Source: a virus. From it: a DNA stretch of 33,858 bases. The stretch is from positions 1-33,858 of the IMG/VR virus record IMGVR_UViG_3300029268_000489. One strand, written 5' to 3'. Below the pieces are notes generated by a model that was not told the DNA's origin, made no database searches, and saw only the letters and a list, made by a program, of their open reading frames with translations. The position numbers and the translations under genes are program-made. This document shows, in pieces, positions 22,653 through 24,411 of this stretch; the first letter of the stretch is position 1; every line of letters starts with the position of its first letter.

Positions 22653-23516
22653 TTAATTGTACTTAAAGCCTGTTGGCAAGAGTGCTGGTCTTGGAATGTC
22701 AGTTCTATCCGTCCCGGCACGTCTTTTGAGTCGTGCATATGAACTGCTAGTATTATCAGTATCCACATCGTCCTTCTCCTTAGTCCAAGTAACTATTTCC
22801 CAACGACCGTCGTGATGTTCTACAAGTGCTGTACAACTTTCAACCCAGTCACCGTCATTCATGTATGTGACACCATCTATAATTTTTATTTCTGCGTGGT
22901 GTATATGTCCACAAATAACTCCATCAAAACCTCGCTTCTTACAATATGCCGCTAGATTTTTTTCAAACTGAAACATAAAATCTATGGCTTTTTTTACTTT
23001 GTGTTTAAGGTATTTGCTAAGACTAAAGTACCCAAAACCAAAACGATGACGTATCCAATTGAATTTGCTATTAAGCGATAAAATGAAATCATATGCTTTG
23101 TCTCCTAAAAAACTTATCCACGGGGCTAATCTTGTTATACCATCAAACAAGTCACCGTGTGTTACTAAATAGTGCTTACCATCAGCACCTATATGTTCTA
23201 TTTGATTGTGAATTTCTACTAAGCCAAAACTGAATCCATATGGAATCATAGGTCTTAAAAATTCATCATGATTGCCTGCTACATATATTACTTTAGTTCC
23301 TCGTTTAGCATGACCCAAAACTCTACGAACAACATTGGTGTGACTTTGTTTCCACCGCCATTTGTTTTGTTGTATTCTCCAAGCATCAATAATATCACCT
23401 ACAAGATACAATGTATCACATGTATTATGTTTTAAAAAATTATTTAATTTATCTGCTTTACTATCTCTAGTACCAAGATGCACATCACTGATAAAGATAG
23501 AACGATATGTTTTCAT
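22653..23516 (-). CDS. LpxH-like calcineurin-type phosphoesterase
   Basis: A 287-aa metallophosphoesterase with all five family motifs: SDVHLG at about residue 9, GDIIDAW, GNHDE, THGDLFD and GHIHHAEI. This order and spacing fit the LpxH / UDP-2,3-diacylglucosamine pyrophosphatase branch. Family members hydrolyse the pyrophosphate of UDP-linked lipid A precursors or other nucleotide diphosphates; the phage substrate is unknown. The start at 23516 is fixed because the first motif begins nine residues in; a longer in-frame start at 23564 would run through the promoter region. There is no ribosome site: the late promoter motif lies three bases before the ATG. An isolated transcription unit preceded by a terminator. 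Confidence 0.85.
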   Translation of the reverse strand: MKTYRSIFISDVHLGTRDSKADKLNNFLKHNTCDTLYLVGDIIDAWRIQQNKWRWKQSHTNVVRRVLGHAKRGTKVIYVAGNHDEFLRPMIPYGFSFGLVEIHNQIEHIGADGKHYLVTHGDLFDGITRLAPWISFLGDKAYDFILSLNSKFNWIRHRFGFGYFSLSKYLKHKVKKAIDFMFQFEKNLAAYCKKRGFDGVICGHIHHAEIKIIDGVTYMNDGDWVESCTALVEHHDGRWEIVTWTKEKDDVDTDNTSSSYARLKRRAGTDRTDIPRPALLPTGFKYN

Positions 23517-23519
23517 CTT

Positions 23520-23528
23520 GTATTTATT
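23520..23528 (-). promoter_or_regulatory. T4-like late promoter AATAAATAC with upstream iterons
   Basis: The minus strand reads CCAAATAAATACAAG then ATG (23516). Eight bases upstream lie two TTGTCACA-type iterons. With T4 spacing, transcription would begin at or next to the start codon. Confidence 0.55.
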
Positions 23529-23536
23529 TGGAATAT

Positions 23537-23555
23537 TGTGACAAATATGTGACAA
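23537..23555. repeat. Two TGTGACAA iterons, 11-bp period
   Basis: TGTGACAA at 23537-23544 and 23548-23555, with start-to-start distance 11 bp, so both face the same side of the helix. On the minus strand they read TTGTCACA and lie immediately upstream of the late promoter of the phosphoesterase gene and just after the terminator. A second set is at 24382-24411. Confidence 0.6.
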
Positions 23556-23564
23556 TATAACCAT

Positions 23565-23589
23565 TAAAAAGAGCCCTTTTGAGGCCCTT
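23565..23589 (-). terminator. Rho-independent terminator of the coiled-coil protein gene
   Basis: On the minus strand AAGGGCC, a 7-base loop and GGCTCTT form a 7-bp stem with one G-U pair, followed by a T-run. It lies about 80 bases after the stop of the 215-aa gene and separates it from the phosphoesterase unit. Confidence 0.75.
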
Positions 23590-23671
23590 AGTACTGGTTA
23601 CGCAAATCCAGCGACACGCTATTTTGTGTCCGATTTAAAAAGGGTTGATAGCCAGCCTTTAACGCTGGTTA
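23590..23671 (-). other. Gene-free segment with two further hairpins (structured 3' UTR)
   Basis: Between the stop of the 215-aa gene and its terminator the minus strand can form CCAGC-7-GCTGG (23668-23652) and GACAC-8-GTGTC (23630-23613). Neither has a T-run. The segment could stabilise the 3' end of the mRNA or be a small RNA released from it. No tRNA cloverleaf is seen. Confidence 0.35.
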
Positions 23672-24319
23672 TTATTTTCCCAATAGACTGTCTACCTTTG
23701 CTTCAGCAACATTTAAACGAGCTTCAATAGCGTCCAATGCTGGATCTGCAGGAGTAGCAACTGCTTCAATAATTTGTTGTGTTACTTCTGGAGTAACTGC
23801 TTCAACACCTGTAGCCGCAATTATAATTTCTTCAACTGCATCAGCAACTTGTTGAGCTACTTCTGGAGTTGGGGCTGGCATATCAGCAACTGCTTGCATG
23901 ATAGCTTCTGTGATTGCGACTGGATCAATAACAACTTTCGGCTCTGCTGTAACAACTGCCATAACAGCGGCTGAAACAATATCAGCAACTTCAGTATGAA
24001 CAATTGGATCAGCTTCAGTTTGTGCTGTAACAACATCAGTAACGATGATAGCGGCTTCTTCATGGAATACGCTTGATGACAATGCAACTACTTCTGCTAC
24101 GTCAACTGGTGCGTCATTTGCTACTGCGGCAACAATAGCGTCAATGTGAGCTTCTGTTTTCTCAGCGATTAATTGGTCAACCTGAACTTCAACTACAGAA
24201 AGTCTTGCGTCTAGTTCTTCAATGCTTGTGGCACTGTCTGTATTAACTGTTGTACCAGTTAGGTTTGCTAATTTGGCTTCTACAGCTACTAATCTTGCGG
24301 CTAAATATTCTAATCTCAT
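23672..24319 (-). CDS. Ala/Val-rich coiled-coil protein, probably structural
   Basis: A 215-aa acidic protein without Cys, Trp or Tyr except near the N-terminus. It has two heptad-like segments near the N-terminus (LAARLVAVEAKLANL; IEELDARLSVVEVQVDQLIAE) and one at the C-terminus (LDAIEARLNVAEAKVDSLLG), enclosing a long Ala/Val/Glu region with a loose repeat built on 'VADIVSAAV', 'AITEAIMQAVAD', 'VTQQIIEAVA'. The matching coiled-coil ends suggest a fibrous oligomer, such as a head or tail fibre or a scaffold. It has a strong AAGGAGAAA ribosome site, its own late promoter with iterons and its own terminator, all pointing to high late expression. No family recognised. Confidence 0.75.
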   Translation of the reverse strand: MRLEYLAARLVAVEAKLANLTGTTVNTDSATSIEELDARLSVVEVQVDQLIAEKTEAHIDAIVAAVANDAPVDVAEVVALSSSVFHEEAAIIVTDVVTAQTEADPIVHTEVADIVSAAVMAVVTAEPKVVIDPVAITEAIMQAVADMPAPTPEVAQQVADAVEEIIIAATGVEAVTPEVTQQIIEAVATPADPALDAIEARLNVAEAKVDSLLGK

Positions 24320-24364
24320 GGGTTTCTCCTTGTGTGGTTAATTTTGTGCCACTATGACACACAA

Positions 24365-24372
24365 GTATTTAC
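24365..24372 (-). promoter_or_regulatory. T4-like late promoter GTAAATAC with upstream iterons
   Basis: The minus strand reads CTGAAGTAAATACTTGTG, about 45 bases before the ATG at 24319. Three phased TTGTCA iterons end nine bases upstream of it. Confidence 0.55.
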
Positions 24373-24381
24373 TTCAGGAAT

Positions 24382-24411
24382 TGTGACAGTACGATGACAA
24401 AGCTATGACAA
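24382..24411. repeat. Three TGACA iterons, 11-bp period
   Basis: TGTGACAG (24382-24389), GATGACAA (24393-24400) and TATGACAA (24404-24411) start at exact 11-bp steps. They share TGACA with the 23537-23555 pair and are in the same position, between a terminator and a late promoter on the minus strand. Confidence 0.65.

Follow-up and report, generated by a model that had tools for sequence, protein, structure and literature searches.

Two adjacent minus-strand promoters of a T4-like phage appear to consist of host Pho boxes fused, in the register used by the host, to a T4-type late −10 element, a reading drawn from sequence comparison to which we assign a probability of about 0.75. The window takes up the full length of its IMG/VR record (33,858 bp) and is judged by its sequence, which includes a DNA polymerase matching phrog_262 (2.8e-201), to be a fragment of a T4-like phage. 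Run A reads TTGTCATagctTTGTCATcgtaCTGTCAC-N11-TAAATAC (24411-24365, with TAAATAC itself at 24371-24365) and run B reads TTGTCACatatTTGTCAC-N11-TAAATAC (23555-23520, with TAAATAC at 23526-23520). In both runs the repeat period is exactly 11 bp and the last unit begins exactly 18 bp ahead of TAAATAC. Run A contains three predicted PhoB half-sites on the minus strand: A1 (TTGTCAT, 24405-24411, a sequence match), A2 (TTGTCAT, 24394-24400) and A3 (CTGTCAC, 24383-24389, predicted from both the sequence and a matrix of host boxes). Pho box A is defined as A2 plus A3 (24383-24400). The half-sites of run B, also predicted and on the same strand, are B1 (TTGTCAC, 23549-23555, a sequence match) and B2 (TTGTCAC, 23538-23544, sequence and host matrix), which together form Pho box B (23538-23555). 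The TAAATA core of promoter A lies at 24366-24371 (context AGTAAATAC), 11 nt past the box, and that of promoter B at 23521-23526 (context AATAAATAC), with an ATG 4 nt further on, both on the minus strand. The two promoters differ at octamer positions −13 and −12, AGTAAATA in A and AATAAATA in B, the TAAATA core being invariant.

A first-pass annotation had noticed phased TTGTCA repeats beside two late-type promoters, and the 11-bp period and the common distance in A and B bear this out. Two of the three TTGTCA units that it counted in run A are indeed present, but the third reads CTGTCA, and its gap of 8-9 bases is the same fixed distance counted to longer promoter strings. It also placed a terminator upstream of both runs. 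This is correct for run A, where a Rho-independent terminator of the preceding gene lies immediately upstream of the box (24441-24426, minus strand), but upstream of run B there is only an imperfect hairpin plus a T run, which the terminator scan did not flag.

The repeats are confirmed: their phasing is exact and their occurrence far exceeds chance expectation. From the composition of the window, about 1.5e-4 occurrences of the pattern TGTMAY-N5-TGTMAY-N11-TAAATA are expected; two are present, whereas the reversed control pattern has no match there. Since the tandem alone is not significant (four found versus 2.1 expected with two mismatches allowed), the statistical weight rests on the fixed distance to TAAATA. 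TAAATAC per se shows no enrichment, with 14 sites in the window versus 10.8 expected, and its other occurrences there lack the repeats, in agreement with the first-pass annotation. The possibility that the repeats are iterons of a replication origin was rejected, given that there are only two to three units, always oriented toward a promoter and a gene.

Relatives were collected by the phosphoesterase protein alone, which added 79 new loci totalling 820 kb. In this set, tandem TGT(A/C)A(C/T) pairs number 63 distinct cases at period 11 and 0-5 at every other period from 7 to 18; the combination of period 11 with a gap of 11 to TAAATA accounts for 49 distinct sequences and all remaining period/gap cells for 12 in total, counts that do not represent independent trials, as relatives share ancestry. 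In ten of these 12 off-cell cases the tandem is displaced outward by 10-11 bp and stays on the same face of the helix. When no −10 element was required in the search, TAAATA was found at exactly +11 behind 48 of 61 distinct tandem boxes. A set of 34 records, some of 250-525 kb, gave 27 matches versus none for the reversed pattern, with 0-2 sites per record, and a scan of the viral collection found the N11 motif in 50 stretches, an N14 control in none and the host-type N10-TANAGT in two. Chance origin is thus rejected by the window, 34-record, locus-set and collection-scan controls. A search of related phages for the tandem with TAAATA had been proposed from the window alone; the motif recurs in them at period 11 and gap 11, and the conservation of number, phase and distance is that of activator-type sites held at a constant distance from the promoter, as had been suggested. 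In many phages the half-sites are TGTAAY instead of TGTCAY; TGTAAY is rarer in promoters of the host and also present in pstS promoters of other Burkholderiales. Three IMG/VR contigs (L064, L065 and L066, of 171, 91 and 525 kb) have a common upstream stretch around the phosphoesterase at very different contig positions, which suggests redundancy or a chimeric assembly of the 525-kb record.

The nearest cellular PstS sequences (77%) come from Limnohabitans and other Comamonadaceae, which, judging from the PstS gene alone, are the likely hosts. A Pho box with at least 11 of 14 matches is found in all 77 usable upstream regions of host pstS, followed in nearly all 77 by N10 and TAnA(G/T)T, also given as TA(A/G/C)A(G/T)T. 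A scoring matrix built solely from these chromosomal pstS boxes of the likely hosts gives box B the highest score in the window (23.6) and box A the next highest (21.1); the maximum over 60 shuffles of the window is 20.3. The OmpR/PhoB-type DNA-binding domain (PF00486) was found in none of 12 large phage records, compared with 10 of 14 control genomes. Because of the match to the host matrix and the lack of this domain in the phage records, the reader is most likely host PhoB. By their sequence, the repeats are almost certainly Pho boxes for this regulator, and we consider its binding to them highly probable, even if in a cyanophage predicted Pho boxes are reported to have been an unreliable guide to PhoB binding (PMC10976474). 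The two promoters share with Pho-box promoters the 7-bp CTGTCAT-like direct repeats with period 11, the position of the box in place of a −35 element at a fixed distance from the predicted start and, via pstS in relatives, control of phosphate-acquisition genes; they lack a sigma-70 type −10 element, having TAAATA instead.

The first gene behind these promoters, that of promoter A, encodes an Ala/Val-rich protein of 215 aa (23672-24319, minus strand), which has no match in Pfam, PHROGs or NCBIfam and is not known to be connected with phosphate; the gene occupies the slot where relatives have pstS. Promoter A itself is near-identical, letter by letter, to phage pstS promoters such as those of L265 and L255. 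Between a shared Pho/late promoter and a shared 3′ RNA element, some phages have a gene of the 215-aa type and others pstS. The relative L155 encodes a longer form of the protein, 315 aa, with an inserted domain. Promoter B precedes a calcineurin-like phosphoesterase of 287 aa (22653-23516, minus strand, ATG at 23516; PF00149, 7.4e-12), which is conserved in relatives and distantly LpxH-like. LpxH (UDP-2,3-diacylglucosamine diphosphatase) was rejected as an annotation, the scores of 45.6 and 34.1 bits falling below the curated cut-offs of 134 and 190, respectively; sequence similarity supports assignment to the calcineurin-like superfamily only. Genes behind the motif in viral contigs are mostly pstS, the phosphoesterase or the 215-aa gene, and PstS of relative phages exceeds the NCBIfam PstS cut-off. 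Phage pstS genes fetched by protein alone provided 57 distinct upstream regions, of which 54 have the tandem box (13-14 of 14 matches) and 52 have TAAATA at +11; the host-type −10 occurs in none of the 57. In seven cases a phosphoesterase gene that has no box of its own follows a boxed pstS, and other such genes retain a degenerate box. The arrangement of boxed pstS and phosphoesterase points to a small phosphate-response island, with the 215-aa gene in the pstS slot here.

The promoter-A gene is followed by a 49-nt structured RNA in its 3′ UTR (23590-23639, minus strand), recognized by covariation. It comprises two hairpins with compensatory changes and a covarying loop-loop contact; 45 double-changed cells were counted versus 12.4 in shuffles, and seven of 12 pairs have double changes. 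Neither the RNA nor the intergenic region has a match in Rfam. A search of 27 records found the element in 16, as a single copy in 15 of them and as two copies in the other; three likely-host genomes have none. Its distance from the pstS stop codon is 3 nt in 18 of 20 cases; behind a gene of the 215-aa type the distance is 19-40 nt, and a terminator often follows. Further copies are at L255:1254, in L336, L150 and others. The element is possibly a 3′-UTR-derived small RNA that would be expressed under phosphate stress.

The T4 late octamer TATAAATA begins at −13 (PMC2988020), which places TAAATA at −11 to −6 and, through N11, the end of the box at −23. In the host, N10 ahead of a hexamer at −12 to −7 likewise puts the box end at −23. 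The phages thus appear to retain the PhoB register and swap the −10 element. In the host register the phage promoters have T at −11, a position that is A in 77/77 host promoters, and −12 is variable; with a 1-bp shift they have A at −7, a position that is T in 77/77. Neither register therefore makes TAAATA more than a poor −10 for sigma-70.

In a 349-kb relative, TAAATA occurs 97 times in forward and 33 times in reverse orientation in intergenic DNA upstream of genes. It precedes 88 genes, including tail sheath-like and tube-like ones (judged from their N-termini), and only two of these 88 have a Pho box. With this count and 0-2 sites per record, the boxes were rejected as a general late-promoter element. 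Reading frames for a gp55-like late sigma factor are present in eight of 12 large relative records; gp55 was not found in the window, itself a fragment. In the gp55-like translations no added C-terminal region 4 is apparent. The homologues in L160-L167 are about 290-320 aa long, with some 100 extra residues before the core relative to T4 gp55 (185 aa). The enrichment of TAAATA and the gp55 homologues together make it probable that a gp55-type late polymerase uses this core. The gene for gp23, without TAAATA directly upstream, probably because it lies inside an operon, is uninformative as a late-promoter landmark.

Of the 88 genes in the same 349-kb relative, 23 have TAAATA 10-13 nt ahead of the start codon and none has it at 14-16 nt; in nearly all the others the distance is at least 17 nt. 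In a wider set, 63 TAAATA sites are located 10-14 nt before a start codon versus four in reverse. Given a late start, genes with TAAATA 10-13 nt before the ATG would form a separate class, with predicted leaderless late mRNAs, including that of the phosphoesterase. The cultured Pelagibacter phage Mosig has TAAATA-N5-ATG before a phosphoesterase homologue, adjoining a divergent phosphate transporter gene.

We propose that under phosphate limitation host PhoB~P would occupy the stretch from about −40 to −23 as a tandem dimer, with one extra unit beyond the tandem at promoter A, and would activate transcription from TAAATA. The targets would be pstS and the phosphoesterase in relatives, and the 215-aa gene and the phosphoesterase here, suggesting that part of phage late expression may be tuned to phosphate starvation of the cell. 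PhoB contacts region 4 of sigma-70, which is missing from gp55. In T4, gp33 and the gp45 sliding clamp occupy the beta flap and the upstream DNA (PMC7892883). A direct partnership of PhoB and gp55 is therefore mechanistically awkward, and possible routes would be contact of PhoB with other parts of the polymerase or with a gp33 homologue, or time-sharing with sigma-70. Direct positive cooperation of PhoB with the gp55-type polymerase, as opposed to separate use of overlapping promoters, might be expected with slightly less than even odds. Of similar probability is the proposal that host PhoB~P serves as a site-specific activator of the gp55-type late polymerase, so that a host nutrient signal would gate individual late genes. 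PhoB would then be the first activator of T4-type late promoters that acts while bound to DNA. The same overlap with DNA contacted by gp33 and the sliding clamp in T4 (PMC7892883) might also mean that PhoB at −40 to −23 blocks the late complex, the box then repressing or timing late expression; this is very unlikely, since the register is that of activating host promoters and the gene content is that of an uptake response.

The promoters could instead be ordinary PhoB/sigma-70 promoters, presumably as at cyanophage pstS, in which TAAATA is a weak −10 and the likeness to T4 late promoters is incidental. PhoB does activate sigma-70 promoters without a good −35 element, and the distance between box and core is at most 1 bp off the host arrangement. 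We nevertheless consider this unlikely, because T at −11 or A at −7 departs from the base invariant in the host, TAAATA is strictly the core of the many unboxed promoters of the phage, and the boxed host-type −10 is almost missing from viral contigs (two versus 50). Similarly unlikely, in our estimate, are two independent readers of one start, with sigma-70 and PhoB acting early under phosphate stress and gp55 later without PhoB, the elements overlapping as both place the same start. The identical box-to-start register in host and phage is what such an arrangement would predict, but the −10 element makes no compromise toward sigma-70, having no A at −11 in the host register. The idea of the first-pass annotation that the elements are the motif of a new, phage-encoded activator of late promoters is consistent with the conserved phasing and distance. 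However, half-site, period and distance equal those of chromosomal pstS promoters of the likely hosts, the sites number just 0-2 per record even at 250-525 kb, the genes under control are those for PstS and the phosphoesterase, and no OmpR/PhoB-type DNA-binding domain was found in the 12 large relatives searched. A phage-encoded reader is accordingly barely credible, and novelty would lie in the coupling to a T4-type late −10, not in the activator.

A conserved class of promoters with a host starvation-regulator site locked onto the late core in the register of the host would show how phages build the host's sensing of its environment into their own expression programme. For experiments this would provide a compact system with a single PhoB, gp55 and promoter, and for freshwater metagenomes a sequence signature by which phage genes that respond to phosphate could be recognized. 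With pstS promoters of the Comamonadaceae hosts, the phage promoters share the YTGTCAY direct repeats, the period of 11 and the box end at −23, but the host has TAnA(G/T)T at N10 and the phage TAAATA at N11. T4 middle promoters likewise have an activator box in place of the −35 element, that of MotA, but MotA is phage-encoded and works at a single box with sigma-70 and a TATAAT −10. T4 late promoters have in common with those described here the TAAATA core of the octamer and a gp55-like factor (PMC2988020); they contain no conserved upstream element, whereas here a Pho box occupies −40 to −23, conserved at the boxed promoters only. T4 late transcription is a textbook case without upstream elements, in which the sliding clamp is the sole activator. 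In cyanophages, control of pstS and other genes by host PhoB is established (PMC10976474), and their Pho-box genes, often pstS (P-SSM2 pstS; S-PM2d, PMC10976474), likewise depend on host PhoB/PhoR through boxes in phage promoters. Those boxes differ in being of the cyanobacterial PyTTAAPyPy type and serving other hosts, with no fixed-register fusion to a T4 late −10 described, and in the regions read, cyanophage pstS promoters have no TGTMAY tandem and were rejected as further examples of the fusion. In a survey of marine T4-like phages, the vicinity of pstS was examined for Pho boxes and, as a separate question, for late promoters, and no single regulatory solution emerged (PMC3037559). In the literature searched, we found no T4-type late promoter described as having a Pho box. 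That phage genes can have Pho boxes is known from cyanophages, and it is the fusion of such a box to a late −10 in a fixed register that appears to be new.
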